Made by a program: the position numbers and the translations under genes
Shown: positions 16,120 through 63,516 of the stretch, piece after piece
Numbering within the stretch: the stretch's first letter is position 1
Layout: every line of letters begins with the position of its first letter
Notes under the pieces: model-generated
Told to the model about the DNA's origin: nothing
Seen by the model: the letters and a program-made list of their open reading frames with translations, nothing else
The model's database searches: none
Assembly (NCBI GenBank): GCA_937867305.1
Contig: CALMKJ010000131.1
Span: forward strand, 1-64,000
DNA: 64,000 nt
Source of the DNA: an uncultured Ectothiorhodospiraceae bacterium
GTDB lineage: Bacteria; Pseudomonadota; Gammaproteobacteria; JAABTG01
Direction: 5' to 3'

Positions 16120-16128
16120 GCCCCGTCG

Positions 16129-16154
16129 GTGTGCGGGGCGCACACGAAGTGATC
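16129..16154 (-). promoter_or_regulatory. Class B promoter-like signal (GATCAC-N12-CCGCACAC)
   Basis: CCGCACAC (16129-16136) lies 9 nt before the ATG at 16119. GATCAC is 12 nt upstream and overlaps the end of the methyltransferase gene. Confidence 0.65.
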
Positions 16155-18120: not shown

Positions 18121-20025
18121 TCACACGTTGCGGGACGCCATCCCGGCACTGGCGAAGCAACCCAGAATGAACGCCCGCATGTCCGGGTCAGGCTTGTCGC
18201 TGCGAGACAAACCGATCAGGCCGCCTTGACGGCCCCCGAACACCGAGTCGGCACCCATCGAGAACACCTCGGTCGCACCACGGAACGACTCCGCGGTCTT
18301 GCCGTTCGTCCCGTGGTCGTACACCTTCCCGACGTAGTGATCGGGGAACTCGTCGCGGTAGCCCTTCTCCCGGGTGCCCCGGTAGATGGTCGCCAACGTG
18401 CGCCCGTCCTCCGTCGGTGACTCCTCGACTCGGCGTTTGCGCCACGAATGCGTCATCTCCGACAGGTTCGGCACCAGGTACTCCATCCGGTGACCGAACT
18501 CGTGGACCGCGACCGGGTAACGGGCGTCCCGCCGCGGCAGACCGCCACCTGACGACGACAACCGGATCTGGGACACGGTCTCGTACCCGTCGCTGTTGGC
18601 CCGGATCTTCTTCTTCCGGTAGAACGGCTCCCCGTTGTTGTACCGAGGGTCGGTGGCCAGCTCCCACCCTCGAGTGGTGCGGTCCGCTGCCGCCTCGCCC
18701 CTCGTGGACCGGTTGTAGTCGGCCAGCCTTGCCATCTCGTCGGCCGAGATGACGGACCATTCTTTGCCGACGACAGCATCCTTCGTGTCCGACTCGGACT
18801 TCCCCGGGTACCGTGCAGCCTTCTCTTCGTCGCTCATCGGCTCGTAGAACGTGACATCGTGGATGTACGTCCCGGCCCCGTAGTGGTACTGGTAGCCGCG
18901 ACGCTTCGGCTCCAAGGAGATCTCGCCGCTGTAGAACGTCCGGCCCATGAGCACCTCGGTGCCTTGGCCGCGGGTCTTCATCCGTTCCAGCTTGTGGTGC
19001 ACGTAGTGCCCGCGACGGTTGGAAGCGCCGATGTGCAGCGGGGTGGCCGCGCGGTTGTGCACGTCCAACCAGTCGGCCGGCCACAACCCGGCGGTCGACG
19101 CCATCACTTTCGCGCCCGGCTTCGACGACTTCTCGTGCAGCTTCAACTCGCCGCCCATCGGGCGCACCTCGGCCAGCACCCGCAGGTACGCGTCCGTCAT
19201 GTCTTCGAGCGCCTGCTGCGTCTTCTCGTCCCGAGCCGATTCGAGGTTCACCAGGTCCGGCGACTTGTAGTACGTCGCGCCCGGCATGCATTCGCCGTTC
19301 GCCTGCGCCCGGTCGAACGCGGCCCGCTCGTCGGCTTCCAGCTCCATGCGCCGGTCCAGCCACCACTTCTCGGTCGCCTCGGCACCCCCGTGGGCATACC
19401 CGTCAGCGACCTGGTCGGCGCGTTTCGCGACCGCGGCACCCAACGCGACAATCGCCCGGTCCTCGGTGCCGTACACCTGGGCCAGGACGTTCCGGGCGCT
19501 GCGGGACTTCGGAGACAACGACCCGTCCATGCTGCGGCGTGTGGTGAACGCCTCGTCGATCGCGGTCGCGACCCGCCGCAGGTCTTCGGCGGTCGGGTCG
19601 TCCGGCAACGTCACGTCTTCGGCGCGGACCCGGTTCGCCAACGCCTCCTCTTCGGCTTCGAGCGCAGCCCAGTACGCCTCAGACCGGGTGTCGATGTCGT
19701 TCTGCGTGAGGCCAGCCAACGCGTCCCGGTTCCACGCGGTGACCTTGATCGGGTCCAGATAGAGGTTCTCGCCGTTCTCGTCGACGGCCTTGACGTAGCG
19801 GCGGTACAACCCGGAGGGCTCGCCCACAGCCGGGAAGTCGTCCGGCACCACCTGCGCAGGTTCCGGCTCTGGTTCGACCGCGGTCGGCGGAGGTGCCGGG
19901 TCGCCCCACAAGTCGTCGATGTCGACCGGGGCGGCCGGCAGCTCGTCCAGCGTCGCCTCCGGGGCATGGAACGGCGCGAAGCGACCACCGTTGCCGTCCA
20001 GGTGAAGATCCTTGCGTCGTGCCAT
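18121..20025 (-). CDS. Tagged metalloprotease-like protein (HEFGH)
   Basis: The protein has 634 residues. The start is fixed by a class B signal 9 nt upstream. The N-terminus (RRKDLHLDGNGGRFAPFHAPE, then a VDIDDLWG segment) closely matches that of the sigma-like protein, although the rest differs. Residues 508-512 are HEFGH, a zinc-metalloprotease HExxH motif; Glu586 in ATEVFSMG could be the third ligand. About 350 residues between tag and protease are charged and helical with some resemblance to phage head-morphogenesis/toxin modules. It may act in the recipient cell or in virion-like particles; the substrate is unknown. Confidence 0.7.
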   Translation of the reverse strand: MARRKDLHLDGNGGRFAPFHAPEATLDELPAAPVDIDDLWGDPAPPPTAVEPEPEPAQVVPDDFPAVGEPSGLYRRYVKAVDENGENLYLDPIKVTAWNRDALAGLTQNDIDTRSEAYWAALEAEEEALANRVRAEDVTLPDDPTAEDLRRVATAIDEAFTTRRSMDGSLSPKSRSARNVLAQVYGTEDRAIVALGAAVAKRADQVADGYAHGGAEATEKWWLDRRMELEADERAAFDRAQANGECMPGATYYKSPDLVNLESARDEKTQQALEDMTDAYLRVLAEVRPMGGELKLHEKSSKPGAKVMASTAGLWPADWLDVHNRAATPLHIGASNRRGHYVHHKLERMKTRGQGTEVLMGRTFYSGEISLEPKRRGYQYHYGAGTYIHDVTFYEPMSDEEKAARYPGKSESDTKDAVVGKEWSVISADEMARLADYNRSTRGEAAADRTTRGWELATDPRYNNGEPFYRKKKIRANSDGYETVSQIRLSSSGGGLPRRDARYPVAVHEFGHRMEYLVPNLSEMTHSWRKRRVEESPTEDGRTLATIYRGTREKGYRDEFPDHYVGKVYDHGTNGKTAESFRGATEVFSMGADSVFGGRQGGLIGLSRSDKPDPDMRAFILGCFASAGMASRNV

Positions 20026-20034
20026 GCCCCCACG

Positions 20035-20060
20035 GTGTGCGGGGGCGCCACGGAACGCTC
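20035..20060 (-). promoter_or_regulatory. Class B promoter-like signal (GAGCGT-N12-CCGCACAC)
   Basis: CCGCACAC (20035-20042) is 9 nt before the metalloprotease ATG. Confidence 0.6.
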
Positions 20061-21238: not shown

Positions 21239-21265
21239 GTGTGCGGGGATGCGGCGTGCGTGCAC
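21239..21265 (-). promoter_or_regulatory. Class B signal with a leader (GTGCAC-N13-CCGCACAC)
   Basis: It lies 46 nt ahead of the MoxR start, which has its own ribosome-binding site. This copy shows the signal does not need to touch the start codon, which favours a promoter over a translation signal. Confidence 0.55.
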
Positions 21266-22566: not shown

Positions 22567-25187
22567 TGGTCACCCGGTTCGACGACGACACCCTTGATGA
22601 ACGGCGGCAGCTTGTCCACGAGTCCCTCGGCAGCCTCCACACCGCCACTGCTCTGCGGGACGATCGCGGCGACCACCGGGACGGTCGGGCGCTCGTTGGG
22701 CCACGGGGTGTACCCGTCGGTGATCACGACGATCACCGTGGGGCGTTCCCGCATCTGGCATCCGGCCTCGATGCCGACCCGCATGTCGGTGCCGCCGCGT
22801 CCGGCGACCTTCTCGATGCTCTTGCGGTCCTTGTACGGCACGACCTGGTGGGCACCAGCGTCGACGTCCATGACGAGCAGGTCGTCACCGCGGACCCCGA
22901 CCTGCTTCGCGATCGTCTCGATCTCGCGGCCCGCTGCGGCGATGTCGTCGGCGTTCATCGACCCGGACGTGTCCCGGACGACCAGGACACGCGGGACCGG
23001 CTGAACGTAACCGGGGACGACGAGCCGCTTGCGGCCCGTCGCCGTCTGGATCGTGGCGGCGTGGTGGCGGCGTGAACGACGGGCACGGTCGGTGTCGTAG
23101 GACCCCAGCTTGGATCCCAACGCCCGCTTCACGTGCGACCGGAGAACCTGCTGCCACGGCGTCTTTGACGGGGCGAGGTGCCGGTCGGCGGTCTCGACGA
23201 GCCCTCCCGGAACCGTTCCGCGGCCCTTGGCCACGTAGTCACGGATCGCGGCAGCGGTCGCGACGTTGATGTTCCCTTTCTCGATCTCGCTCGCGGCGGG
23301 TGCGGTGCCGCCGAGGTCGTCGGAAGGGTCCAGCTCGCACGGGGCTGCTTCGCCGCCGGAACCGGAACCGCAGCCCTTGAACTCGGGCTGGTTGCCCTGG
23401 CACGTGCACTCCCCGCCCTGGCTGCCACCGGCGCCCTGCTGGTCACCCTGCGCACCGCCGCTCTGCGACTGCGAACCGGACTGGTCGCCCTGGTCGCCTT
23501 CGGTCTCCGGCTGACCGCTGTCCTGACCGGCGTCGGTCTGGTTCCCCTGGTTCTGGTCCCCGTGCTGGGGGCAGTCCGGGTTCGTGCTCGGCTGCGACTG
23601 CTGCTGGTTCTGCGTGTTCTTCTGCTGAGCCTGCTGCAACTCCATGATCTTGCGGAAGTAGTGCATCGGCGTCTGGTAGTCCTCGCAACCCAGCGACTCG
23701 GGCAGGACACCGAACGCCGCGACCTCCGAACACCCGGCGTCCCGCAGGTCGTCGTTGATGGCTGCATCACAGTTGTGGACGAGGAATCCGTGCGTGATGT
23801 AGGTGTGCGAGTCGGTCTCCATGTTGAACACGGGTCCGACGAAACCGCGTCGCGACACGCTCTTGACCGGGTACCACACACCGTCGTCGTCAGACTTCCA
23901 ACGGTGAGAGCATGAGGTGACGACCCGACCGTTCAGGGTGCGTTCCGTCTTGGCGCACCCGTCAGGGTTCCACTCGACGCCGTACAGACGGCCACTCGGC
24001 AACGACCGACCGCGCACGATGCGCCCCTCCCGCTGACGCATCATGAACGTGCTACCCCCGATGCCGTCCTGAGCCAGCAGTAGTACGAGGTCGTGCATGA
24101 GCGACTTGGACGCGGTGCCGACCTTGACAGCGGTCGTGGAGGAATCCTTGCGCTTATGGGTGTGCCCGTCGCCGTCGACCAGACCCTGAATGAACGCCGC
24201 CCGAATGTCCCGGTCGTAGTGGTGGAGGATCACGTCGGGAATGTGCTTCTCGTGCGCTCGAGGTCCGCAGTGCTCCTTCAACCAGCGCCCGAACACGACG
24301 TTCCCGAGGGTGACCTCGGCCGACCCACAGTCCTTGCTGTACGTACGTGAAGCGGACATGTTGATGCTGGCGGCGATCTTCTCGACCCGGTCCATGATCT
24401 CGTCCTCGTGGGAGCCGAGAGAGAACCTCACGGCTGGTGACGACGAACCCTCGGCAACGTACAGCCCGATGAGCCACGCCGTGTCCGGGTTCAGCGGGAC
24501 GCTCTTGACCGCTCGGTTTCCGAAAGTGTGGCGTCCCAGGGAGTCGGTGCCCTGCTGGACATACCCGGACAGGTCGATGCATGTGTCGGCTCGCTTCTCG
24601 CTCAACCGCGGGACGCACAGGTAGTCGCCTTCGCGAACGTCCTCAGCCAGTACCCATTGAGCCTCGTTGAGGACGATGGGGTGCAGACCCTTCTTGTGGC
24701 GCCGCCGCCGGACGAAGAAGGGGTGCTCGGTCGTCGCCTCGATGTGACCGCCGGTGGATTCGATCCGGACAAGCTCGCCGTCGTAGTCGCGGACCATCGT
24801 GGCGACAGACTCGATGGGAGTGTTCCCGGGGAGCAGGGTTCCTGCCGGGAAACAAGCCGCGTTCCAAGCCTTGTGGTGTTGGGGGGTGACCGCCAGGTCC
24901 CGGGCGGTGCGGGCGTGCTCCTGGAACAGGTGCGACGCCTCATGCAGCAGCGCCTCCGCGCAGAACCGGGGGCCTTTCGGTGCCATCGCGTCGAAGTCGA
25001 TGTACAGCCGGAACCGGTCGTCGACCGCGAACGTGCGCAGGCCGGGAGCGGACACGATCCGCAACGAGAACAGGATGCGCGACAGGTACGGCATGATCGC
25101 CAACGCGTCGGCACGCCACGCCTGCACCAGCAGAGCCTGCTCGTCGGACAGGTCGGCGGTGAGGCGGTCGCGGGTGCTCGTGGTCAT
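22563..25187 (-). CDS. Metallopeptidase-like / VWA domain protein interrupted by an intein
   Basis: The precursor has 874 residues; the ATG is set by a class B signal 9 nt upstream. Residues 82-91 (HEASHLFQEH) and the WNAA/CDAAIND segment are the conserved core of the DUF2201-type putative metallopeptidase domain. A Gln/Gly-rich linker with clustered Cys follows, then a VWA domain with MIDAS motif DTSGS and TDG. Residues 112-472 are an intein; the mature protein is about 513 residues. Proteins of this form work with MoxR ATPases, and one is encoded next door. The complex probably matures or disassembles a partner; which one is unknown. Confidence 0.87.
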   Translation of the reverse strand: MTTSTRDRLTADLSDEQALLVQAWRADALAIMPYLSRILFSLRIVSAPGLRTFAVDDRFRLYIDFDAMAPKGPRFCAEALLHEASHLFQEHARTARDLAVTPQHHKAWNAACFPAGTLLPGNTPIESVATMVRDYDGELVRIESTGGHIEATTEHPFFVRRRRHKKGLHPIVLNEAQWVLAEDVREGDYLCVPRLSEKRADTCIDLSGYVQQGTDSLGRHTFGNRAVKSVPLNPDTAWLIGLYVAEGSSSPAVRFSLGSHEDEIMDRVEKIAASINMSASRTYSKDCGSAEVTLGNVVFGRWLKEHCGPRAHEKHIPDVILHHYDRDIRAAFIQGLVDGDGHTHKRKDSSTTAVKVGTASKSLMHDLVLLLAQDGIGGSTFMMRQREGRIVRGRSLPSGRLYGVEWNPDGCAKTERTLNGRVVTSCSHRWKSDDDGVWYPVKSVSRRGFVGPVFNMETDSHTYITHGFLVHNCDAAINDDLRDAGCSEVAAFGVLPESLGCEDYQTPMHYFRKIMELQQAQQKNTQNQQQSQPSTNPDCPQHGDQNQGNQTDAGQDSGQPETEGDQGDQSGSQSQSGGAQGDQQGAGGSQGGECTCQGNQPEFKGCGSGSGGEAAPCELDPSDDLGGTAPAASEIEKGNINVATAAAIRDYVAKGRGTVPGGLVETADRHLAPSKTPWQQVLRSHVKRALGSKLGSYDTDRARRSRRHHAATIQTATGRKRLVVPGYVQPVPRVLVVRDTSGSMNADDIAAAGREIETIAKQVGVRGDDLLVMDVDAGAHQVVPYKDRKSIEKVAGRGGTDMRVGIEAGCQMRERPTVIVVITDGYTPWPNERPTVPVVAAIVPQSSGGVEAAEGLVDKLPPFIKGVVVEPGDQ
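23772..24854 (-). mobile_element. Intein with LAGLIDADG homing endonuclease
   Basis: 361 residues, starting CFPAGT and ending LVHN with Cys as the first downstream residue. TTEHPFF is the block B Thr/His motif. LIGLYVAEG and FIQGLVDGDG are the two dodecapeptide motifs of a LAGLIDADG endonuclease, so both splicing and homing functions look intact. It sits inside the conserved WNAA/CDAAIND motif, a typical choice of an invariant site. Confidence 0.9.
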
Positions 25188-25190
25188 GGC

Positions 25191-25676
25191 CTACTTGTGT
25201 GCGGGGCGGGGTGTCCCGTGCACCATCGCACCGGGCACCGACACGAGACCGGGGTCGACGACGAACACCCGGCACGGCCGGTCGGCCAACCGGTCCGCGG
25301 TGACCCGGTGGGTGCCGTCCAAGGCCGCGTACCCGTCCCGGTGCGGTGTCACGACCGGGTGGCCCTGCCCGAACCAGCCGTCCGGGTCCACCAAGGTGCC
25401 CCGGTCCTGCACGTACGCATTCACGTAGGCGAGGTTGACGAGACCTTGGACGGTGTACCGGACCTGGTTCGGGTCCACGTCGACCAGGTCGTCCTCGTCG
25501 AACACGGTGACCGAGGCGATGCGACGTGCGAGCACCAGCCCGATGCCGATCGTGCGGGTCCACCCGTAGTCGGTCACCGGCCGCATCCATACCGGGTCGT
25601 CGTCCAACGCGTCGTTCCACACCGGCAACGTCTTCACGTACGCCGCCAGCTCGGCCGGACCCTGCGGCGACGTCAC
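25191..25676 (-). CDS. ParB/Srx-like fold small protein
   Basis: The protein has 161 residues with a GTG start overlapping the upstream stop. The C-terminal half contains YAALDGTHRVTADRLADRP followed by CRVFVVD, which resembles the D-G-x-H-R core of ParB/sulfiredoxin-like domains that bind or cleave nucleotides or DNA. The N-terminal half is unassigned. It is coupled to the Cys/His protein upstream and lies just after the helicase. Confidence 0.55.
   Translation of the reverse strand: MTSPQGPAELAAYVKTLPVWNDALDDDPVWMRPVTDYGWTRTIGIGLVLARRIASVTVFDEDDLVDVDPNQVRYTVQGLVNLAYVNAYVQDRGTLVDPDGWFGQGHPVVTPHRDGYAALDGTHRVTADRLADRPCRVFVVDPGLVSVPGAMVHGTPRPAHK
25197..25223 (-). promoter_or_regulatory. Class B promoter-like signal (GTGCAC-N13-CCGCACAC)
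   Basis: CCGCACAC (25197-25204) is 9 nt before the VWA protein ATG; it overlaps the end of the ParB-like gene. Confidence 0.65.
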
Positions 25677-26143: not shown

Positions 26144-27462
26144 CGGCCCCCGGTCGCGGTGAGGCCGCGACGCACCGCGATGCCGTTGGCGACCCGTGTC
26201 GGGGACTCTTCGGTGTACGCGGTCAACCGGCGCTCCCAATCGGGCACCGTCACCCACACGAGCGAGGACATGTGACGGCTCGCCATGACACATAACCGGC
26301 CTTCGGCCAACTGGTGCTCCGACAGCGACGTGTGACCCACGAGCGGGTCCAGGGCGACCACGGCGTGCCACTGGCCGCCCTGCAACGAGTCGGCTGTCCC
26401 GACCGTGATGCCGTCCATGCCCATGGAGCCCAGCAGTGCCGCCACGGTCGCCTGCTGGACGTTGTGCGGCACAACCACGGCGACGTCCCGCTCCCGGAGG
26501 CGTTCGACGGTCACGGTGCCGTCCGGCTCGGTCTGGTGAAGGCTGGTGCCGACGAACGCCGCGGCCTGGGTCGCCACGACCCGCAGCATGGGCAGGTCGG
26601 CGGTCTGCGCGGCCTCGTCGACGAGCACGTGGTCGAGTTCGGGCACCACGGTGCCGTCACGCCGCGTCAGGTGCCGGTCGGGTCGCTTGGAGTCGAACGG
26701 GAAGTCGTACAGCGGTGCGATCGCGTCCACGGTCTCCTGCCCGAGCCGGTAGGAGGACCCGAGCCGCAGCAGCGTCTTGTCCTCGAACCCGGCGAACACT
26801 TCCGGGGCACGGCGGTGCGGGGCGGCACGCATCTGGTCCCACATGGTCGTCTTGACGGTGACGACCGGGCCGATCTGACCGGGGTCCCCGATCATGACGA
26901 CCTGTGCGGCGTTGTCGGCCGCGGCGGACACGTCCGCGAACGTCGCCTGGTACGCCTCGTCGAACACCATCAGGTCGCACTTGACCGGGTTCTTCGCCGC
27001 CGCACACGACGCGATGGTCCGCACGGTCACGTACCGGTCCTCGCTGGGCCTTGCCGTCGTGAACGCACCCGCGGGCGGGTTAGCGCCTCGAACCCTGAAC
27101 ACGACCTTGGGCTGCTTCTTCGCCCCGACCGTCGCCGCCTTCAACTCTGTGGCGAGCCGCCCGGCCACGTCGTACGCGCCGTTGCGGGTCGGGGTCGCCA
27201 CGATGATCTGTAGGTCGGTGCGGGTGACCAGCTCGACGAGCAGGTCGACGAGCAGCGAGGTCTTACCGGCGCCCGGAGGGGCGTCGATCAGGACGACCGG
27301 GTCTCCGCTCCACACCGAGAACAAGGCGCGGGACATGGACGACCCCGGCACGAGTCCCCGGCGTTGGCCGGGTGCAGTGACCGGGTCAGACACGACGACG
27401 GTGCCGGCTGAGGAGGACGCTGAGGTGCTCGGTTCGATACCGAGGTCTGAAAGGTCGATCAT
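26140..27462 (-). CDS. Superfamily 1-like helicase/ATPase
   Basis: The protein has 440 residues, with the ATG fixed by a class B signal 9 nt upstream. Walker A is APPGAGKT (61-68), Walker B VFDEA (167-171), and VVMIGDPGQIGPV is the motif III of SF1 enzymes. Near the C-terminus, TADSLQGGQWHAVVAL and LCVMASRH correspond to motifs V and VI of UvrD/AAA_12-like helicases. It probably unwinds DNA or RNA during replication or transfer of the element. It heads a three-gene overlapping unit. Confidence 0.83.
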   Translation of the reverse strand: MIDLSDLGIEPSTSASSSAGTVVVSDPVTAPGQRRGLVPGSSMSRALFSVWSGDPVVLIDAPPGAGKTSLLVDLLVELVTRTDLQIIVATPTRNGAYDVAGRLATELKAATVGAKKQPKVVFRVRGANPPAGAFTTARPSEDRYVTVRTIASCAAAKNPVKCDLMVFDEAYQATFADVSAAADNAAQVVMIGDPGQIGPVVTVKTTMWDQMRAAPHRRAPEVFAGFEDKTLLRLGSSYRLGQETVDAIAPLYDFPFDSKRPDRHLTRRDGTVVPELDHVLVDEAAQTADLPMLRVVATQAAAFVGTSLHQTEPDGTVTVERLRERDVAVVVPHNVQQATVAALLGSMGMDGITVGTADSLQGGQWHAVVALDPLVGHTSLSEHQLAEGRLCVMASRHMSSLVWVTVPDWERRLTAYTEESPTRVANGIAVRRGLTATGGR

Positions 27463-27471
27463 GCACAGTGT

Positions 27472-27498
27472 GTGTGCGGGGAACCGGCTGGCGTGCTC
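27472..27498 (-). promoter_or_regulatory. Class B promoter-like signal (GAGCAC-N13-CCGCACAC)
   Basis: CCGCACAC (27472-27479) is 9 nt before the helicase ATG. Confidence 0.68.
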
Positions 27499-27500: not shown

Positions 27501-28751
27501 TCAGACCAACTCGGGTGCCTCGGCCAGAGCAACGTCGATCGGCATGTCGCTGCGCTGCGGGCGGGTCGTCTCCCTGGACATCCACCGGCCCGTCGTCGTG
27601 GGGGGCGCCCCGAACGGCAGGTACGGGGCAGCGGCCATGTACAGCGGGTGGCGCAGGCGCTGGGCGTCGATGACCATGGACTTGGCCTGGTCGGTGACCG
27701 CGGTGACCTTCACCCACACCTCGTCGGAGACCGGGTCGATGCCGACCTCCTTGATCGTGCAGTCGCACGGCGCAATGTTCGGGGCACCGGCGTTGAACAG
27801 GATCACCTTGGCACCCGCCTTCATCTTGAAGCCTTCGGAGACGGTGTACGTGTGCGAACCGGCCGTCGACTTGCCTTGCATGAGGGTGAGCTTGGACGCG
27901 GCCCCGGTGACCGTGTTCAGGTCCACCAGGAGCGCGTCACAGTCGGCCAGAGCCTGCGCGGCGTCCGCAACCGTGTTCAGGTGACGGAACGCCTTCGCGG
28001 CTGACGCCGGTCCGGGGAAGCACGCCGAGATCGTCCCGTACCTCTCCGAGCCGATGAGGGCCTCCGCGTACTTCGCGTTGACCGGTCCGGTGTTCGCGGC
28101 CACGAGCAGCGCCACGACCCGGTGCGCGGTGGACCCGGTGAACCCGAACGAGTCGGCCCACTCTTCGACGTTGTCGGGGTTCGCACCGGACGGCAGCCAG
28201 TACGCGGACGCGAGGGCTTCGGTGAGGACCGGCAGTCGTCCGGACGCGGCCAGCATCCCGCGGTATTCGAGGATGGAGGACACCCGGCCCACCTCGAAGC
28301 TGTTGGGGGCCTTCTTCGCGGCCCGGACAGCGGACGCGGCGATCTTGCGGGCCTGGTTCAACGAGGCCCGGTCAGCGAACACTGCGGCGACACCGGTCGC
28401 GGGACCGAACATGGTCTCGGCGTGGTGCAGGGCTGCCTTCGCCTCCGGGTCGTGGGCCTGGGTCATGATCCGTTCCAGGAGCCCGAAGTCGACCGGGGCG
28501 CCGGGCGTCAGGGTCGGGACGGGGACAGTCAGGTCGTCGAACGTGACCTTGCCGTGGGCCGTGTCGTCGGAGACGAACTCGCTGGCCATGAGCTTGCCGC
28601 CTGTGCCGAGGAACAGCAGCCAGCGAACCGGGGCGGACAGCAGCATCCCGCGCTGGCGGGTGCGGCGCACCGGACGACCTGCGGCTTTCGCGTGTGCACG
28701 TCGGGCTGCGGCGATCCGGGCGACCTGTTCGGTGGTGGTGAGGGGCGTCAT
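27501..28751 (-). CDS. Conserved-looking protein of unknown function (416 residues)
   Basis: The ATG is fixed by a class B signal 9 nt upstream. The N-terminus is basic (ARRAHAKAAGRPVRRTRQRG), and the middle is Ala-rich and helical. Two Cys lie in APCDCTIKEVG. No catalytic motif or membrane segment is seen. It is the first - strand gene after the candidate origin and is read toward the helicase, so a replication or partition role is possible; I cannot support one from sequence. Confidence 0.55.
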   Translation of the reverse strand: MTPLTTTEQVARIAAARRAHAKAAGRPVRRTRQRGMLLSAPVRWLLFLGTGGKLMASEFVSDDTAHGKVTFDDLTVPVPTLTPGAPVDFGLLERIMTQAHDPEAKAALHHAETMFGPATGVAAVFADRASLNQARKIAASAVRAAKKAPNSFEVGRVSSILEYRGMLAASGRLPVLTEALASAYWLPSGANPDNVEEWADSFGFTGSTAHRVVALLVAANTGPVNAKYAEALIGSERYGTISACFPGPASAAKAFRHLNTVADAAQALADCDALLVDLNTVTGAASKLTLMQGKSTAGSHTYTVSEGFKMKAGAKVILFNAGAPNIAPCDCTIKEVGIDPVSDEVWVKVTAVTDQAKSMVIDAQRLRHPLYMAAAPYLPFGAPPTTTGRWMSRETTRPQRSDMPIDVALAEAPELV

Positions 28752-28760
28752 GCCTGGTAT

Positions 28761-28787
28761 GTGTGCGGGGTCCAGGGTTCCGTGCTC
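28761..28787 (-). promoter_or_regulatory. Class B promoter-like signal (GAGCAC-N13-CCGCACAC)
   Basis: CCGCACAC (28761-28768) is 9 nt before the ATG at 28751. Confidence 0.68.
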
Positions 28788-29297: not shown

Positions 29298-29324
29298 GAG
29301 CACGCGACCAGCTCTCCCGCACAC
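29298..29324 (+). promoter_or_regulatory. Class B promoter-like signal (GAGCAC-N13-CCGCACAC)
   Basis: CCGCACAC (29317-29324) is 9 nt before the ATG at 29334. Confidence 0.68.
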
Positions 29325-29333
29325 CAGTACGGC

Positions 29334-29549
29334 ATGACCACCAACCACACCGCACCCGTCGTCGACTTGTTCGGCGAGCAGGCCACCGAGCACCGGCACC
29401 GTCCCGCCCCGACTCCCCGGCCCAAGGCCGCCAGACGGCCCGCCCAGGCGTCCGACAACGGGTGTGCCACGTGCGACCCGGCCGACCCCGCCCCCGACTA
29501 CGGGTCGTGCCTGCTGTGCGAATGCATCCACCCGATCGCCCTCGGCTGA
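29334..29549 (+). CDS. Small Cys-rich zinc-ribbon protein, 71 residues
   Basis: The start is fixed by class B spacing. The C-terminal part has CATC...CLLCEC, likely a zinc ribbon; the middle is Pro/Arg-rich. It is the first + strand gene after the candidate origin. It could bind nucleic acid; no family recognised. Confidence 0.6.
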   Translation: MTTNHTAPVVDLFGEQATEHRHRPAPTPRPKAARRPAQASDNGCATCDPADPAPDYGSCLLCECIHPIALG

Positions 29550-29559
29550 CCCCGCACAC
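29534..29559 (+). promoter_or_regulatory. Class B promoter-like signal (GATCGC-N12-CCGCACAC)
   Basis: CCGCACAC (29552-29559) is 9 nt before the ATG at 29569; it overlaps the stop of the previous gene. Confidence 0.6.
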
Positions 29560-29568
29560 CACCACGGC

Positions 29569-30093
29569 ATGACGACTCGACCAGTCAACGTCCCGCAACG
29601 ACGGGACCTTCTCGGACGCTACGCACCCATGGCGCTGCCCGACGCGGACGTGCACCTGCACGCGACCGGCACCACCGCGTGGCCGGCACCCGCCGAAGAC
29701 CCGGACGAAGCCCAAGCGATGCTGTACGAGATCGCCTGGGACAGCACCCGCCCCGACAAGGAGCGAGCGTTGGCTGCCCGCGGCGCCATCGCGTGCGCCC
29801 GTGAGATCCACGGCCCGAGCGCCGGTGCTCTGCCGCCCGGCGACGAAGCCGAAGGGCACCTGGCCGACGCGGTCGTGTCCAACGACGAGGTGCTTGACGC
29901 GGTGACCGAGCTGGGACCGGTCCCGTACCCGCAGTCGCGGGCGTTCGGTTCGATGCTGGCCGGCCGGCTCTACGACACCCGCACGACCCAGCGCGACCGG
30001 CTGCTCGCTGTCCAGGAACGGTTCCTTGCCGACCAGGTGCTCCCGCCCGAATCCGAGGCGTCACGCCTCGCGGCCGACGACAGGCGCCGTTGA
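29569..30093 (+). CDS. Tagged helical protein, terminase-small-subunit-like length, unknown function
   Basis: The protein has 174 residues with a class B start. Residues 11-30 (RRDLLGRYAPMALPDADVHL) belong to the shared N-terminal segment group. The rest is helical and acidic. ARGAIACAREIHGP and YDTRTTQRDRLLAVQERFLADQ have no family I can name. Size and helix content alone do not justify a terminase call. Confidence 0.6.
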   Translation: MTTRPVNVPQRRDLLGRYAPMALPDADVHLHATGTTAWPAPAEDPDEAQAMLYEIAWDSTRPDKERALAARGAIACAREIHGPSAGALPPGDEAEGHLADAVVSNDEVLDAVTELGPVPYPQSRAFGSMLAGRLYDTRTTQRDRLLAVQERFLADQVLPPESEASRLAADDRRR

Positions 30094-32622: not shown

Positions 32623-32837
32623 CCGGGCTGTTCCGGCGCAAGTCGGCACCCCGACCTGTGACGCCGCTCTGGTACACGTGCGGTGTGTGTGACGTGGTGT
32701 GGCGCAGCGTGTCCGCGTCGTGCTGGATGTGCGGGTCCTCGAAGCATGCGACGTCGCGCGGTTCGCACACGCACCGACCGGTTCTCGACGACGACTGGTG
32801 CATCGAAGGCCCTCACCCGCACACAGGTGCGGCATGA
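32619..32837 (+). CDS. Small zinc-ribbon protein, 72 residues
   Basis: GTG start overlapping the previous stop. CGVC and CWMC form a clear four-Cys zinc ribbon. Function unknown. Confidence 0.6.
   Translation: MTGLFRRKSAPRPVTPLWYTCGVCDVVWRSVSASCWMCGSSKHATSRGSHTHRPVLDDDWCIEGPHPHTGAA
32798..32824 (+). promoter_or_regulatory. Class B promoter-like signal (GTGCAT-N13-CCGCACAC)
   Basis: CCGCACAC (32817-32824) is 9 nt before the ATG at 32834. The signal lies inside the coding end of the zinc-ribbon gene. Confidence 0.65.
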
Positions 32838-42253: not shown

Positions 42254-42280
42254 GTGCATGACCCGGGTGCTCCCGCACAC
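42254..42280 (+). promoter_or_regulatory. Class B promoter-like signal (GTGCAT-N13-CCGCACAC)
   Basis: CCGCACAC (42273-42280) is 9 nt before the ATG at 42290. Confidence 0.66.
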
Positions 42281-42289
42281 GAACAAGGC

Positions 42290-42514
42290 ATGAGTACAGC
42301 TACCGCTGAGACGACCGACGAGTTCACGTTGCTCAACGCCGACCGTTGCGACAGGTGCGGGGCACCCGCGTTGGTGGCGACCGCGCACCTGGCCGGTGTG
42401 TTGATGTTCTGCGCCCACCACGCCAACGAGCACTTGCCGGCGTTGCTGGCCGACGACCGGGTCACCGTGATCGCCGACCAGCGTCACCGGCTCAGTGACG
42501 GGGTTCGGTCGTGA
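42290..42514 (+). CDS. DUF7455-like small zinc protein
   Basis: The protein has 74 residues, class B start. LLNADRCDRCGAPALVATA then MFCAHHANEH matches the short actinobacterial family (DRCDRCG...LxFCxHHxxE) usually annotated as hypothetical or DUF7455. Likely one zinc site. Biological role unknown; common in host chromosomes, so perhaps captured. Confidence 0.72.
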   Translation: MSTATAETTDEFTLLNADRCDRCGAPALVATAHLAGVLMFCAHHANEHLPALLADDRVTVIADQRHRLSDGVRS

Positions 42515-43202: not shown

Positions 43203-43241
43203 AGGCCCTTCGGGGCGACCAACAGAGGCCCTTCGGGGCGA
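43203..43241 (+). repeat. Twin GGCCCTTCGGGGC mini-hairpins in the ssb leader
   Basis: Two direct copies of a 16-bp unit, 43203-43218 and 43226-43241. Each contains GCCC-TTCG-GGGC, a stem closed by a stable UUCG loop. They sit 16-54 nt ahead of the ssb ATG and could protect the message or bind a protein. Confidence 0.6.
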
Positions 43242-43256
43242 AAGGGGCGTAAGCCC

Positions 43257-54285: not shown

Positions 54286-57150
54286 TCACGCCTCCCCCTG
54301 ACTCTGCTTGGCGCGTTCGCTGGCCAGCACCGGGCCCGGCACGACGACTTCGACCGGTGCTGGTGCCGATGGGCCCTGCCCGTCGTCCTCGTCCTCCCCG
54401 AACGCCGCTGGCGGGCCGGTCACGACAGGCTTCTTGTCCTCGCGCCGGGCTGCTTCCTCTGCACGACGCCGCTCGTCTTCCTGCTGACGCCGCGCCAACT
54501 CCTCGGCCATCTTCTGTCCCTCCCAGACCCGGTCTTTCGCGGACTGCGACCGCGCCGCGTCCACGACCTCACCGACTGTCGCGTTCCCGTGGGCTGCGCC
54601 GAGCGCACCGCGGGCCGCGGTGGACACGGTGCCCCACGCACCCGACGCCGCGGTCGAAGCACCGCGCTTGCCGACCAGAGAAGCTCCCGCGATACCGGCC
54701 AGCGCCGGCAGGCTCACCGAACCGAGCGCCACAGCACCCACGGTCGCACCAGCCGTGTACGCGACACCCTTCGCGATCGTGCGGACCGGCTTGTGCGCCA
54801 GGTCGTGACGCCACTTGTCCTTGATGTCGCGCACCCGTGTCCGCAACGCCTCGTCCGCCTGGTCGATCTTCGCCCCGGCCCGCGCCGCCTTCGGCACACT
54901 CAGCTCCGCCGCCAAAGCGGCCTTGCCTTCCTCGGAGTTCTCGAACTCGTCCCGGGCCGCCTTCTCGGCCGCCTTCTCGGCCGCCTTCTCCTCGTCCGCG
55001 AGGCGCTGCGCCGCGACCTTCTCCTCGGCAGTCCTCGGGACCGGGGTGCCGCCTTCGTTGTCGTGACCGTCGTCCTTCGGGCCCGTGCCGGTGTCCTTCG
55101 GAGGGCCGGCTGTCTTGTCGTCCGGCAACTGCTGCTTGCCCTGCCCGTCAGGGGCGGCCTTGCCACCAGGCAGCTTGCTCTTCGCGTACGCCTTCGCGGC
55201 TCGCGCCGTCTTCAACCGGGCACGGCGACCCCACTGGCTCATCAGCCCGGCCGTCGCACCACCGGCGACGCCACCAGCGACCGCGGACCCCAGGTTCCCG
55301 TTCGCTGCGGCCTTCCCCCACGCACCGGCTGCCTTCACCGACAACGGGGACGGGATGGACAACCGCTTGAACATGTAGTGCAACGCGACCGCGGCCACGA
55401 ACGGTGCGACCCCGACCCACAGCGTCGTCATGACGCCGCCCGGGCCGCCCGGCAACGTGGTCACGCCGATGGTGATGAGGATGTTCGCGATCAGGGTGAT
55501 GATCGCCAGCAGCAGGCCGGCACCGAACGCGTAGAAGCTGATGCCGATGTACTGCTTGAAGTAGGCGCCCACCCGGGTCGAGTCCCCGTTCGGTGTCATC
55601 GAGAACACCAGTGTGGCGAGCACACCGAGGATCATCATGAGCCCGAGAAGCTTCGCGAAGATGATGGACAGGGAGAACAGGCCGAAGACGAGCAGCAGCA
55701 GGAACGACGACAGCATGTAGGTGAGGCCGGCGACCAGTCCGCCGCCGCTCGCCTTGCCGTGCAGGTGCAGGATGAAGTCGCGGGCCGCCTCGGTCGCTTC
55801 CGTGCCGGACGCGCCAGTGGTCCCGATCTCGTCGATCTCGTTGTCGCCGGACTCCCAGTTGAACGCGTTGAAGTCCGGTTCGCTGTCGGAGAACGGTTGC
55901 GCGATCGAGTCGCAGACCTCGTCCTGGTCGCCGTCACGCAACAGCTCGGACCGGTCGTCGGGGACCGTCCACCCGGTTGTCGGGTCGGAGCTGTTGGCGC
56001 TGTTGTAGCAGGCGGCCCATGCGACGATCCACATGTCTTTCGCGTCGGTGCCGGTCGGTCGGGCGAAGAACCCGGTCGGCTCGGTCACCTTGACTCCGGC
56101 ACCGTTCATGATGCTGGACACGGTGCCCCACGCGACGGGGTTGGCGGCTACCCCTTCACCGACCTGCTGGTGGATGGGGGTGCCCCGGTTCGCTTCCAGC
56201 ATCCGGCACCACACGATGTTGGCGTAGTGGCTGCGCCCGAACTGGAGTCGCTTCCACGTTTGCAGACCGGACAGCTTCCAGTACGAGTTGATGGCCAACG
56301 GGACGGCTGCGGCCCCCGCGCCGTTGACGCCCATCGCGTCCTTGTAGCCGGTTTCCAACGACTTCGTGTACGACTCACACGAGTATTTGTTCTCCGGCCT
56401 CGGCTTCGGCGCGTCGATGTCGGCGGTCGCTTTCACCTGGAGCGCGTCGCTGTCCGACAGCGACGACACGATGCCGCCGGCGACCGCTGCTGTGACCGAG
56501 TCGATGCTGGTGATGAACCAGCCGGGTGACCCGGTTCCCGGGTTGTAGTCCGCCGACCCAGGACCGGTGCCGCCGGTGGATGCCGCGGACCCGACGAACA
56601 TGATGGCGAACAGGCCGACGACGAGCATCTTCTGCCAGATCATCTGGGCGAACCCGCCGCCGTTGGCTGCAAAGAGCCGCCACAGCCACACGACCAGGCT
56701 GAGCGCGGTCAACGCCGCTAGCAACGCGGAGTCGGCGATCGCTTTCGCGATGTCGTGGAACGCGTTGTCCATGGTGCCGCCGACATAGTTGACCGGGCAG
56801 AACGCGTACGCGTACTGGACGAGAGCAGTCGACCAGCCCCAGACGGCGTTGCCAACGTCGAGGGTCATGCTGGAGATTCCGTGTCGTGCCGCCTTGTCGA
56901 ACTGGTCGGAGACACCCCATCCGAGCCGGGAATGCAGGTCCATCGAGTCGTTCCAGCGCATCACCGGAAGCAGCGACTCGGCGCCGTTGCCGCTGCCGGC
57001 GCACACCCCGGCGACCGGGTTGTTGCCGCCGCCGCCGTTGTTGTCGTCGTCTTCGGCAGCGAACGCGGACGTGGACGAACCGAGTACGAACACGATGGTG
57101 GCAGCGAACGCGGCCAACAGAGACAGGGACCGGTGCAGGAAGGTGCTCAT
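54286..57150 (-). CDS. VirB6/TrbL-like polytopic conjugation protein
   Basis: The protein has 954 residues from the ATG in an ATGA overlap with the upstream gene; an ATG at 57162 is possible. A cleavable signal peptide (ending TSAFA) is followed by helices in two groups (about 130-200 and 470-620), the second with LVFGLFSLSIIFAKLLGLM, typical of TrbL/VirB6. A long hydrophilic tail (about 650-954) is Ala/Lys/Glu-rich with a coiled coil, ending QSQGEA. VirB6 proteins form the inner-membrane channel of type IV secretion. Large versions with tails are usual in actinobacterial conjugative elements. Confidence 0.78.
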   Translation of the reverse strand: MSTFLHRSLSLLAAFAATIVFVLGSSTSAFAAEDDDNNGGGGNNPVAGVCAGSGNGAESLLPVMRWNDSMDLHSRLGWGVSDQFDKAARHGISSMTLDVGNAVWGWSTALVQYAYAFCPVNYVGGTMDNAFHDIAKAIADSALLAALTALSLVVWLWRLFAANGGGFAQMIWQKMLVVGLFAIMFVGSAASTGGTGPGSADYNPGTGSPGWFITSIDSVTAAVAGGIVSSLSDSDALQVKATADIDAPKPRPENKYSCESYTKSLETGYKDAMGVNGAGAAAVPLAINSYWKLSGLQTWKRLQFGRSHYANIVWCRMLEANRGTPIHQQVGEGVAANPVAWGTVSSIMNGAGVKVTEPTGFFARPTGTDAKDMWIVAWAACYNSANSSDPTTGWTVPDDRSELLRDGDQDEVCDSIAQPFSDSEPDFNAFNWESGDNEIDEIGTTGASGTEATEAARDFILHLHGKASGGGLVAGLTYMLSSFLLLLVFGLFSLSIIFAKLLGLMMILGVLATLVFSMTPNGDSTRVGAYFKQYIGISFYAFGAGLLLAIITLIANILITIGVTTLPGGPGGVMTTLWVGVAPFVAAVALHYMFKRLSIPSPLSVKAAGAWGKAAANGNLGSAVAGGVAGGATAGLMSQWGRRARLKTARAAKAYAKSKLPGGKAAPDGQGKQQLPDDKTAGPPKDTGTGPKDDGHDNEGGTPVPRTAEEKVAAQRLADEEKAAEKAAEKAARDEFENSEEGKAALAAELSVPKAARAGAKIDQADEALRTRVRDIKDKWRHDLAHKPVRTIAKGVAYTAGATVGAVALGSVSLPALAGIAGASLVGKRGASTAASGAWGTVSTAARGALGAAHGNATVGEVVDAARSQSAKDRVWEGQKMAEELARRQQEDERRRAEEAARREDKKPVVTGPPAAFGEDEDDGQGPSAPAPVEVVVPGPVLASERAKQSQGEA

Positions 57151-57905
57151 CGGTGTCCCCATCGTCCGGTTGCGGGCATGTCGAACAGCTCGGAGGCATC
57201 GAAGTCGTCGTGTTCGTACTCGCCGTCCGGGAGCCGGCGGGTGAGCGGGTCGTCGACCGGGCCCGGGCCGGGGTCCGTTGCAGGTTCGAGAACAGCCGGC
57301 GGCGGGTCGGCCTCCACGACAGGCTCCGGCACGGGCTCCGGCACGGGCTCCGGCTCGGGCGCCACGAACACCGGGGTGACTACCTCCGGGGCTGGTTGCT
57401 CGACCACGGTAGGTGCCTCGGCGGTGCGCTCGGTGGCCCCGTCGAACGTGTGACCGTCCCCGCGGCGCGTGTCACGGGTCAGCACCGCGGTCGTTGCCAC
57501 CAACGCCTCGTACCGGGGCGCTTCGACCCGGTACGGGACCGTGTTGTGCCGCAACTGCTTGAAGTGCGTCGGTGCGATGTCGATCGGTTCCCCGCACAGG
57601 TAGAACTGACCGATGTCGCGGGCCCGGCGCTTGTCCAGGAACGTCTGGTAGGTCCGCAGCCTCATCCCTTTCGAGGACCGCTGGTAGAACAGCACCGACG
57701 CGGCGATCAGGACGACCGGGAACACCAGGACCGCATACTGGCTCAGGAACGGCCATGCGAACGCGGTGAGAATCACCCCGGGCACCGCTGAGGACGCCAA
57801 CACGATGAACAGTCGCCAGTTCATCTCGACGGTGCCGATGACGACGGTGCGCTTCTCAGCCGCCTCTTTCCCCGTCAACGGGGTGAGGACATGCAAAGGG
57901 TGCAC
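57147..57905 (-). CDS. VirB3/PrgI-like membrane protein with Pro-Glu-rich tail
   Basis: The protein has 252 residues; GTG start with GGAG before it. Two membrane helices (about 33-50 and 55-72) follow a short N-terminus, the layout of VirB3/PrgI proteins that contact VirB4. The tail carries PEPEPVPEPVPEPVVE and ends acidic. It is coupled to the VirB6-like gene. Confidence 0.62.
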   Translation of the reverse strand: MHPLHVLTPLTGKEAAEKRTVVIGTVEMNWRLFIVLASSAVPGVILTAFAWPFLSQYAVLVFPVVLIAASVLFYQRSSKGMRLRTYQTFLDKRRARDIGQFYLCGEPIDIAPTHFKQLRHNTVPYRVEAPRYEALVATTAVLTRDTRRGDGHTFDGATERTAEAPTVVEQPAPEVVTPVFVAPEPEPVPEPVPEPVVEADPPPAVLEPATDPGPGPVDDPLTRRLPDGEYEHDDFDASELFDMPATGRWGHR

Positions 57906-57947: not shown

Positions 57948-58265
57948 TCAGGCGCCCGCGGTCTTCTTCCAGATGTTGACCAGGGCGTTGATCACGACGT
58001 CGAACACTTCCAGTCCGGCGGGGATGACGAACCCGGGTGCGGACAGCAGCAGGCCGACGATCAGCGCGCCGGACAGTCCCTGGCCGCCACCGCCGCCCAT
58101 GCTCATGCCGCCGCGGCGCCGGTCCCACGCCCACTTCACGAACGCCCACGCGACGATCAGCATGCCGATCACCGCCAGCAGGTTCATGAGGGGTTTGATC
58201 GGTCCGAGCGCGCTCGTGAACGTGCTCCACTGGGTGCTCAGGTCAACCTTGCCCGAGTTGTCCAT
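57948..58265 (-). CDS. VirB2/TrbC-like small two-helix membrane protein
   Basis: The protein has 105 residues; AAGAAG before the ATG. Helix 1 (about 28-47, LLAVIGMLIVAWAFVKWAW), a Gly/Met-rich loop, helix 2 (about 66-85). This is the size and form of VirB2/TrbC pilins or their Gram-positive counterparts. It is the first gene of the unit that encodes the VirB3- and VirB6-like proteins. Confidence 0.6.
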   Translation of the reverse strand: MDNSGKVDLSTQWSTFTSALGPIKPLMNLLAVIGMLIVAWAFVKWAWDRRRGGMSMGGGGGQGLSGALIVGLLLSAPGFVIPAGLEVFDVVINALVNIWKKTAGA

Positions 58266-58353: not shown

Positions 58354-59463
58354 TCACGCCGACTTCTGGACACCTCGCGGGCGAGCCGCCGCCGCAACGG
58401 CAGCCGCCCAGAGCTTGTAGGCGTAGTCGGGGTACGCCTCCAACACGTTCACCGCGGACGCCTGGTCGCGGAGGTCGAGGTTGCTCCACGGCGCCATCAC
58501 CGCTTCGGTCTCCGGGGTGTCGTCCCCGTTCCCCCACGCCTCCAGAGCCGACCGCAGGTCTTCGGGGCCCTGGATGGCGGCGTGCGCCCTCGCGACGGCC
58601 CGGTGCCCCAGGTGCGGTTCGATGATCGGTGACCCGGGGGCCCGTTCGGCGACCGCGTTCCACACGTGCCGCAGAGCGGAGCGCTTCGTTCCGCCGTCGC
58701 CGTCGATGTACGACAACGCGACGTCGAGGTGCGAGTCGGGCTTGACGTAGTTGAGTGCGTGCACCGACCCGTGCATCGCGACGCTCTGGTCGAAGACCTC
58801 TTCAGTCATGTTCTCGGACCGCACTTTCTCCCACCCTTGGACGTTGTTCCGGAAGTCACGCGACGGCCGGTGGTTCCGGTCCGGCCAGTTGTCACGAATG
58901 TGCTGTGCCAGGTCGTCCTTCTCGCGTGTCGTGAGGTCGCGTCCGGCGATCGCGGTCAGCTCGGCGAGACGGGTCCGGAACTCCCGGTACGCCTTCATGT
59001 CTTCGGAGCGGACGTGGCGCCCGGCGCGGGACGCGATGTTCGCGGCCGACTTGTTCACGAGGCCGTACAGGTCGCGGATCTTGTCTTCGTTGCCGTTGGC
59101 GCGCATCGCCAGCACGGCGATCACCGCCTCTTGGGCCAGGTCGTCGACATCCATGCCGTTGTCGAACGCCCCACGTTTCGCACCCCACGACCGGGAGACC
59201 CGGCGGGACACCTTCATGAGCTCGCGGACCGCGGCGGGGTCTTCCCAGTCGATGACGGACCCGCTGGTCGCCGGCTCGGTGGGGGTGGTGGTGTCGGTGG
59301 CCGGCTGAACGGGCGGCAGGGGCTCAACGGAGGGGGTGCCCCACAGGTCGGTGATGTCGACGACAGGGGCGACCAGGTCGGTGATGTCGGATTCGGGGGC
59401 CTGGAACGGTGCGTACTGACCTCCGTTGCCCGGAAGCGCGACGTCTTTGCGGCGAGTGCTCAT
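58354..59463 (-). CDS. Sigma-factor-like protein with shared N-terminal tag
   Basis: The protein has 369 residues; class B start. Residues 1-45 (RRKDVALPGNGGQYAPFQAPE then VDITDLWG) match the metalloprotease N-terminus. Residues 77-150 look like sigma region 2: VRELMKVSRRVSRSW, then DVDDLAQEAVIAVLAM (the core-RNA-polymerase-binding signature D-L-x-Q-E), then DLYGLVNKSAANIASR. Residues 158-190 (YREFRTRLAELTAIAGRDL, TTREKDDLAQHI) resemble region 3. No clear region 4 helix-turn-helix is visible, so the -35 contact would be unusual. It may recognise the GC-rich signals used by the element, including its own. Confidence 0.6.
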   Translation of the reverse strand: MSTRRKDVALPGNGGQYAPFQAPESDITDLVAPVVDITDLWGTPSVEPLPPVQPATDTTTPTEPATSGSVIDWEDPAAVRELMKVSRRVSRSWGAKRGAFDNGMDVDDLAQEAVIAVLAMRANGNEDKIRDLYGLVNKSAANIASRAGRHVRSEDMKAYREFRTRLAELTAIAGRDLTTREKDDLAQHIRDNWPDRNHRPSRDFRNNVQGWEKVRSENMTEEVFDQSVAMHGSVHALNYVKPDSHLDVALSYIDGDGGTKRSALRHVWNAVAERAPGSPIIEPHLGHRAVARAHAAIQGPEDLRSALEAWGNGDDTPETEAVMAPWSNLDLRDQASAVNVLEAYPDYAYKLWAAAVAAAARPRGVQKSA

Positions 59464-59472: not shown

Positions 59473-59498
59473 GTGTGCGGGGCGCCGGCGAAGTGATC
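59473..59498 (-). promoter_or_regulatory. Class B promoter-like signal (GATCAC-N12-CCGCACAC)
   Basis: CCGCACAC (59473-59480) is 9 nt before the sigma-like gene's ATG, so the gene may be autoregulated. The GATCACTTCG block is the same as in the copy at 16129. Confidence 0.66.
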
Positions 59499-60377: not shown

Positions 60378-61400
60378 TCAGTCGGCTGCCGCGGTCAGCA
60401 CCCGCTCCAACGCGGCCTTCTCCGGTGCGGTCACCCACAACCCGTACTTGGCTTTCACCTGGATCTGTCGGACCGCGTAGTCGGCCCGGTACGACTTGTT
60501 CGACGGGAGCCAGGTCGCGTAGTCGGCGTCACCCTTCTGACGGTTGCTGGACGGGTCCGCAGCCATCAGGTTGAGCGGGTCGTTGGCGACCAGGGCTCGC
60601 TTCTCCTCGTCCCAACCAGCACCGCCCGTCACCCACACGTTGCCGAGAGCCACGATGTGCTCGATGTCGAGGTCGGTCGCGTAGTCGTCGTCCTGGGAGT
60701 CGAACCGGTAGTTCTTCGTACCCGTGTACGGCTCGTAGGCGAGTACCCCGGACAACACCTTGCACGACCCGGTCTTGCTGGTGGTGCCCGGCGCACATTC
60801 GACGTCGACGAGGTCCCTGGACAGCACGTCGTTGCGGGTGTCGAGGCCGTTTCGGGACCACTTCCAGTCACCGACCGAGTCGTCCCATTCGGTACCGAAC
60901 TCGTCCCGGTCGTACCCGGTCATCGGCGACTTCCCTTTCACCGCGAGCGTGTCGAGCGTCTTCAACGCTTGCGCGTACACGGCTTTGCCGCCTGGCGCCG
61001 GCGACGGGTCGGGGTTCTTCGGCTGGGTCGGTTTGTGCGGCAGCTTCGCTTCGAGCTTCTTCTCGAACGCGTCGAAGTCGAAGTTCTTCGCCTGCTTCTT
61101 GTTCAAGTCGGACGGGACGAGGGCTGCCGCTTCGGGCCCGTACCGGCGGCGCACCTCCGCCTTCAACGCTTTGACCGCGGCCTTCCTGGCTTCCTCTTTC
61201 GCTTCACCGGCCAGCTCACCGGTCAACGCGCGAGCGTCAAGCAGCTCAGCGAGACCCGGGATCTCCCAGCTCGACCACCCGGCCGGCAACCCGGCGGCCT
61301 GACCCAGCATGCCGGTGACACCGAGTGTGTTGGCTGCGCCCCAGATGAACACGAGCACGGGAAGCATGATGAACAGCCGGATGGCGCGAGGGATCTGCAT
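60378..61400 (-). CDS. Secreted or anchored HNH nuclease (DUF1524/GmrSD C-terminal type)
   Basis: The protein has 340 residues; class B start. An N-terminal membrane segment (FIMLPVLVFIWGAANTLGV) suggests export or anchoring. The C-terminal 200 residues have YDRDEFGTEWDD, DLDIEHIVALGNVW and NDPLNLMAADPSSNRQKG, the D/HxxH...N HNH motif of DUF1524 proteins. It probably cuts DNA outside the membrane, as other secreted actinobacterial proteins of this type are thought to do. It is the gene next to the CRISPR array. Confidence 0.85.
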   Translation of the reverse strand: MQIPRAIRLFIMLPVLVFIWGAANTLGVTGMLGQAAGLPAGWSSWEIPGLAELLDARALTGELAGEAKEEARKAAVKALKAEVRRRYGPEAAALVPSDLNKKQAKNFDFDAFEKKLEAKLPHKPTQPKNPDPSPAPGGKAVYAQALKTLDTLAVKGKSPMTGYDRDEFGTEWDDSVGDWKWSRNGLDTRNDVLSRDLVDVECAPGTTSKTGSCKVLSGVLAYEPYTGTKNYRFDSQDDDYATDLDIEHIVALGNVWVTGGAGWDEEKRALVANDPLNLMAADPSSNRQKGDADYATWLPSNKSYRADYAVRQIQVKAKYGLWVTAPEKAALERVLTAAAD

Positions 61401-61409
61401 GTTGTGACG

Positions 61410-61436
61410 GTGTGCGGGGAGGTGCGCTCGGTGCTC
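61410..61436 (-). promoter_or_regulatory. Class B promoter-like signal (GAGCAC-N13-CCGCACAC)
   Basis: CCGCACAC (61410-61417) is 9 nt before the ATG at 61400. Confidence 0.67.
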
Positions 61437-61522: not shown

Positions 61523-61734
61523 GGACTGCTCCTCGCGCATGTGGGGCTTACTCATCCAGCGGACGCAAGATGACCGCGGTGTGGGACCACTCCTCGCGCA
61601 CGTGGGGTCTACCACGCAGCGCACAGCACTGTGCTCAGACTGCTGGACCACTCCTCGCGCACGTGGGGCTTACCGCCTTCGTCGGCGGTGCCAACGGATT
61701 CGTACGGACCACTCCTCGCGCACGTGGGGCTTAC
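61523..61734 (-). CRISPR. Orphan type I-E-like mini CRISPR array (4 repeats, 3 spacers)
   Basis: 29-bp repeats at 61523-61551, 61584-61612, 61645-61673 and 61706-61734 with spacers of exactly 32 bp, the I-E dimensions. On the - strand a repeat begins GTAAGCCCC and ends GTGGTCC, like actinobacterial I-E repeats. The copy at 61523 has three changes and that at 61584 two, so the old end is at low coordinates and the array reads on the - strand. No cas genes are in the window; a host I-E system would be needed. No leader remains between the last repeat and the TnpB stop at 61775. Confidence 0.88.
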
Positions 61735-61774
61735 CCTTGCTGACCTGCGTGAACGCGAAGCCTGCGTAAGACCA

Positions 61775-63418: not shown

Positions 63419-63467
63419 CTTCTTCGCCCTCCTCTCCATGTCCGTGACTGGGGCGTTCGGACTGGTT

Positions 63468-63494
63468 GTGTGCGGGAGGCGAGGGTTCATGCAC
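63468..63494 (-). promoter_or_regulatory. Class B signal with leader (GTGCAT-N13-CCGCACAC)
   Basis: It lies 49 nt upstream of the TnpB start and has the canonical spacing. Confidence 0.52.
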
Positions 63495-63516
63495 CCTCGG
63501 GGCAAGAAAGTTCGGA

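Follow-up and report, generated by a model that had tools for sequence, protein, structure and literature searches.

The phage T4 protein gp55 recognises the -10 element only, and gp33 substitutes for region 4. gp55 is a highly divergent member of the sigma-70 family, modelled by regions 2.1-2.4 (PMC2988020). Regions 2 and 4 are the promoter-binding domains of the ECF (group IV) sigma factors, among which self-activation is common but not universal, and the SigO-RsoA pair of Bacillus subtilis is a two-part sigma, in which a protein with region 2 and no region 4 works with a partner (PMC8103513). The passages of PMC6751061 considered here describe a plasmid-borne case, SigN (ZpdN) of the B. subtilis plasmid pBS32, a weakly ECF-like factor shown by experiment to transcribe a pBS32 regulon and to activate its own gene.

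The protein studied here (Table 1), encoded in a window of 64,000 nucleotides (the whole stretch of DNA analysed), resembles each of these systems in part. Like SigN, it is plasmid-encoded and weakly ECF-like, but the own-plasmid regulon and self-activation are experimental for SigN and inferred here, the host phylum and the plasmid type differ, the two are likened by description and not by sequence, and the SigN passages considered mention neither leaderless GC-rich promoters nor N-terminal tags. It shares with gp55 its place as a divergent sigma-70 member, and one of the 18 members of its family weakly matches the PHROG late sigma family phrog_234 (E 0.0026); however, it has a large helical C-terminal domain and its plasmid has a -35-like box. 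SigO-RsoA provides a precedent for a partnered protein that has region 2 and lacks region 4, but no region 4 partner was identified beside the present gene. The region 2 similarity of the family is highest to the ECF sigmas (hhalign, PDB profile and TIGR02937), whereas their defining region 4 was not found in the present protein by hhalign or fold search, and this protein has an additional region 3-like segment, a tag and the C-terminal domain.

Table 1. Positions of the sigma-like gene, its domains and neighbours, and the associated signals in the window.
Feature	Position	Strand	Basis
Sigma-like protein P0001, 369 aa	58354..59463	-	ORF, ATG start at 59463; coding score 98.8; one of 18 aligned family members
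N-terminal tag RRKDVALPGNGGQYAPF, residues 4-20	59404..59454	-	Also in protein 18121-20025(-)
Sigma region 2-like domain, residues 76-155	58999..59238	-	hhalign with ECF set (prob 94, partly circular); profile against PDB sigma factors
DVDDLAQEAVIAVLAM, region 2.2-like core-binding segment, residues 105-120	59104..59151	-	Aligned with DDxxQExxxxVL segment of ECF sigmas
Region 3-like segment GRxLTxxExxxLAxxIR, residues 153-192	58888..59007	-	In register with region 3 of RpoD/RpoS/FliA-like sigmas (E 1e-4, prob 55)
Family-specific C-terminal helical domain, residues 238-369, where region 4 would be	58357..58752	-	Predicted model
-10-like box CCCCGCACAC of sigma-like gene, 9 nt then ATG	59473..59482	-	Sequence; counts on contig
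-35-like box GATCAC (class B) of sigma-like gene	59493..59498	-	Class B geometry
Small membrane-like protein, 105 aa, next gene downstream	57948..58265	-	Gene order similar after homologue on Arthrobacter-group plasmids (likeness by position)
Large secreted/membrane-like protein, 958 aa, farther downstream	54286..57162	-	~1000-aa protein at matching place on Arthrobacter-group plasmids (likeness by position and size)
Class B signal + ATG, tagged protein (ORF 15034-16143; signal sets start at 16119)	16117..16136	-	Signal pattern, class B box
Class B signal + ATG, tagged 634-aa protein 18121-20025	20023..20042	-	Signal pattern, class B box
CCGCACAC-N9-ATG, class B-like, GATCGC box	29552..29571	+	Signal pattern, class B-like box
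Class A signal GGTGCA-N14-CCGCACAC-N9-ATG, VWA/intein protein 22563-25187	25185..25204	-	Signal pattern, class A box
Class A signal	27460..27479	-	Signal pattern, class A box
Class A signal	28749..28768	-	Signal pattern, class A box
Class A signal	29317..29336	+	Signal pattern, class A box
Class A signal	32817..32836	+	Signal pattern, class A box
Class A signal	42273..42292	+	Signal pattern, class A box
Class A signal, GmrSD_C-like protein upstream of sigma-like gene	61398..61417	-	Signal pattern, class A box; Pfam
Class A signal, then leader with Shine-Dalgarno-like GGAG, no ATG at +9	21239..21246	-	Class A box

Used as a lone query, the 369-aa protein had no Pfam match at E values up to 5; judged on this one sequence, the sigma likeness would have been missed. 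A first genome scan with this query returned 0 loci. Repetition of the scan with an early family alignment gave six loci. A tblastn search of plasmid records identified eight relatives with 28-33% identity, all on plasmids of 375-608 kb from soil bacteria of the genera Arthrobacter, Pseudarthrobacter, Paenarthrobacter and Curtobacterium, and genome searches added further relatives to these. No relatives were found in the viral contigs searched, and the phage records yielded one weak match of doubtful meaning. The family alignment comprises 18 members, with one apparently frameshifted locus (L012) omitted.

The initial annotation had read DVDDLAQEAVIAVLAM as a region 2.2 signature of sigma-70 proteins and proposed a profile search, which found sigma likeness with the 18-member family and none with the lone protein. 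Pfam Sigma70_r2 (best E 3e-4) and TIGR02937 (sigma70-ECF) were each matched by 8 of the 18 members, one relative exceeding the Pfam region 2 cut-off. When the profile of the 18 sequences was compared with PDB sequences, the eight best matches were all sigma factors (best E 9e-4), and an earlier family profile, run on whole genomes, retrieved ECF-like sigma genes. hhalign aligned region 2 of the family with an ECF set (prob 94), a comparison that is partly circular, the members of the set having been recruited with the family profile; the comparison with an RpoD/RpoS/FliA-like set is independent of that profile but weaker, and aligned regions 2 to 3 (prob 55, E 1e-4). In both the hhalign and the PDB-profile alignments, the DVDDLAQExxxxVL segment of the family falls on region 2.2 of the ECF sigmas, and the signature is thus borne out. 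The region 3 that had been placed beside it may be retained in part: the likeness to canonical sigmas extends, more weakly, past region 2 in register with region 3, but Sigma70_r3 was matched by a single member (E 0.094). With the whole predicted model, Foldseek gave no match below 0.001 in PDB or BFVD; sigma factors were frequent among its top-ranked weak matches, and the best viral match was a phage sigma-70 (prob 0.80, E 0.11). Region 2 is highly variable among family members whose plasmids have identical -10 elements. At the level of the family, these comparisons make it very probable that the protein is sigma-like.

Region 4 had been described as not visible, and this observation holds: hhalign of residues 238-369 with the two sigma sets found no region 4 similarity (prob 0.2 and 1.2). 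Seven helices are predicted in these 132 C-terminal residues (pLDDT 84, fair confidence), and a fold search of the domain against PDB gave no significant match.

The sigma-like gene had also been said to start with a class B signal, which agrees with the boxes in Table 1, the class B of the initial annotation being equated with this signal by position. On the 106-kb contig, CCCCGCACAC occurs in 22 exact copies (1.3 expected), 19 of which stand exactly 9 nt before an ATG. The more general CCGCACAC-N9-ATG pattern was found 15-82 times per homologue-bearing plasmid and 0-1 times with a reversed-pattern control, counts that are of non-independent events, because the plasmids and genes are related. 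As CCGCACAC had been picked after viewing the sequence, an unbiased k-mer/offset scan was run, in which the CCGCACAC pair came out first for this element and close to the top for pACHL01, a plasmid of Pseudarthrobacter chlorophenolicus A6 on which ACHL_RS22220 is the homologue (observed/expected 49/0.54 and 80/1.5, respectively). W07, a Curtobacterium plasmid read in part, has variants at the same offset (CCGCGCATAG and CCGCRCACA), as has a Pseudactinotalea locus (CCGCACAT); across the variants seen, an A is fixed at -11, if the A of the ATG is taken as +1. In the annotated stretch of pACHL01 that was read, the starts predicted by the signal coincide with the annotated CDS starts. We are highly confident, from sequence pattern and geometry, that these GC-rich signals are promoters, and the fixed distance between signal and start codon suggests leaderless initiation. 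A search of the open-access literature found nothing on the GC-rich signal or the N-terminal tag.

Two classes of signal have this -10 in common. In class A, on this element, a GGWGCA box (-37 to -32, counting the A of ATG as +1) lies exactly 14 nt upstream of CCGCACAC in 29 of 31 copies, the 31 being boxes within 11-15 nt; most of the GGWGCA-CCGCACAC copies have the start codon at +9, and several have instead a leader with a Shine-Dalgarno-like site. Class B has a GA(T/G)CA-like box one base closer to the -10. The classes divide the products: 24 of 25 genes with a GGWGCA box are untagged and 24 of 28 other signal genes are tagged (Fisher p 7e-10, indicative only, because the genes are related). 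On class B products the tag takes forms such as DxNGxxHGxxGRF and GNGGQYAPF. The sigma-like gene belongs to class B and its product is tagged, with 52% identity to protein 18121-20025(-) across residues 3-57; in its relatives the tag reads RVPxGVPxGGQFA. A similar division between tagged and untagged proteins was seen on pACHL01, with a -35 box of its own. An N-terminal GGQF/GRF tag is common to many otherwise unrelated proteins, including those at 18121-20025(-) and 15034-16143(-) and the products of genes on contigs C131, C17, C103 and C156 and on pACHL01, and a Fic/DOC-family protein at 49973-51313(+) has a tag-like N-terminus, RVPRGRADAGQW. It is conceivable, although we consider it quite improbable, that the tag marks proteins for sorting or export, and that the plasmid thereby sends the sigma-like factor and other tagged proteins into a recipient cell, switching on class B genes there at once.

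The assembly of the window contains gammaproteobacterial-type RpoD and RpoS-like sigmas (judged by eye), whereas all relatives of this element are actinobacterial, so the host of the assembly should not be equated with that of the plasmid. The window contig (G000:C131) is probably mis-binned, which a similar GC content would favour. Several other features of the window were recorded. A CRISPR-like set of four 30-nt repeats with 61-nt periodicity (61523-61735) directly adjoins a Cas12u4/TnpB-like gene of 606 aa at 61775-63595(-). A VWA/DUF2201 protein at 22563-25187(-), adjoining an AAA_5-like gene, is split by an intein that contains a LAGLIDADG homing endonuclease. DNA polymerase III alpha at 37658-42187(+) and SSB at 43149-43718(+) are plasmid-borne, and genes of the same kinds lie near the homologue on pACHL01. 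Three 180-nt repeats (1302-1481, 3414-3593 and 4129-4308) stand at the starts of prepilin-like genes.

The proposed link between protein and signal draws on conserved self-placement and co-occurrence. CCGCA[CT][AG][CT] lies 8-9 nt before the start in 15 of 21 family genes (per-position chance ~3.5e-4), including members at ~20-30% identity, and the signal was present on all eight homologue-bearing plasmids, on which the sigma-like family was the sole sigma-like family found throughout. Among 765 genomes (369 from the same class as the window's assembly and 396 Actinomycetales), more than nine signal copies were found in two only, the window's own assembly (50) and G370 (85), in which the homologue lies on contig C45 and nearly all copies on C45 and C56. 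A third genome, G763, had nine copies and a tagged protein, and no full homologue in the same search. Against a reading of the signals by this protein count the variability of region 2 among members with the same -10, the 6 of 21 family genes that have no signal before the start and the distant family carriers G567 and G527, which have 0 signal copies, besides the lack of a Pfam match for the lone protein and of a region 4. On balance, we favour, with some reserve, the view that the sigma-like protein reads the GC-rich signals. This grading, like those given above for the sigma likeness and for the promoters, is a matter of the author's judgement and was not calculated.

The explanation that we prefer, and hold to be somewhat probable, is that a plasmid-specific sigma-like factor without region 4 recognises the -10 element CCGCACAC and drives its own gene. 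The protein would act as a sigma-70-type specificity factor for RNA polymerase, encoded by the plasmid. Its region 2 domain, together with part of region 3, would bind host core polymerase through the DVDDLAQE helix and open the DNA at CCGCACAC(A). With region 4 replaced by the helical domain, the -35 contact may be made otherwise, through a partner, or be dispensable. The factor would recognise class B signals at least, and class B would drive the sigma-like gene itself together with a number of plasmid proteins that bear the N-terminal tag. Transcripts would begin with the A of the start codon or a base next to it, so that the mRNAs would lack a leader. From homology, signal geometry, replicon restriction and placement, we propose that the protein binds core, reads these promoters and activates its own gene, and we place the start site accordingly.

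The main rival readers are canonical sigmas on these plasmids. The signals might be promoters read by an RpoD-like sigma, a helicase-sigma fusion or a FliA-like sigma, the sigma-like protein being a co-factor, a partner half-sigma or the reader of a minor class. All eight plasmids carry canonical sigmas with region 2 above the Pfam cut-off, and the RpoD-like genes of plasmids W01, W04 and W06 are preceded by their own CCGCACAC-N9-ATG and are thereby equally placed as self-activating readers; moreover, two promoter classes with a common -10 could mean two readers. However, the canonical types differ among the plasmids and none is common to all eight, unlike the sigma-like family: RpoD-like genes occur on Arthrobacter-group plasmids and none was found on the three from Curtobacterium, while W01 and W05 showed no FliA-like gene. 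A canonical sigma was likewise not found on the readable ~151 kb (four contigs) of the present element, which is incomplete and in which ~71 kb of contig C156 is masked, so this plasmid may carry one as well. We regard this reading as unlikely, though to be taken seriously. The initial suggestion of a self-contained transcription programme was accordingly sound in placing the promoter set and the sigma-like protein on the same element and overstated as to self-containment: no RNA polymerase gene was noticed, and the related plasmids carry canonical sigmas, three with their own signal, so that two or more factors may run the programme jointly. Among the canonical sigmas, L025 (W05) and L026 (W01) each combine a helicase and an RpoD-like sigma in a single open frame of more than 900 aa; the frame at G370:C45:33706, of similar length and matching sigma region 2, is probably another such fusion.

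It is improbable that the protein is a sigma mimic, binding core polymerase or an anti-sigma through its region 2-like domain and blocking or diverting host transcription without initiation. The absence of region 4 and a tag common to unrelated plasmid proteins would suit a mimic, and a sigma-like domain is known from another protein, PhyR (PMC8103513), but a mimic needs neither the alignment through region 2 into region 3 nor the signal before the family's own genes. That the signals are operators or translation or mRNA 5'-end signals, with an unrelated sigma resemblance, is very improbable: the constant distance to the start codon also suits a translation signal, but the leadered copies retain the -35/-10 spacing, which argues for a promoter, the -35-like box stands at an exact spacing and the A at -11 is fixed.

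The plasmid probably controls some of its transcription by a programme of its own. If the preferred explanation of a plasmid-specific factor is correct, a nearly T-free -10 is read on a group of actinobacterial megaplasmids by a sigma-like factor that lacks region 4. Dozens of mRNAs would then be made leaderless, and the two promoter classes would separate proteins according to their N-terminal tag. Such a system would offer high-GC hosts a natural and orthogonal set of promoters and would serve as a test case for the opening of GC-rich DNA by a sigma domain, and start sites and regulons would become assignable for many unannotated plasmid genes.
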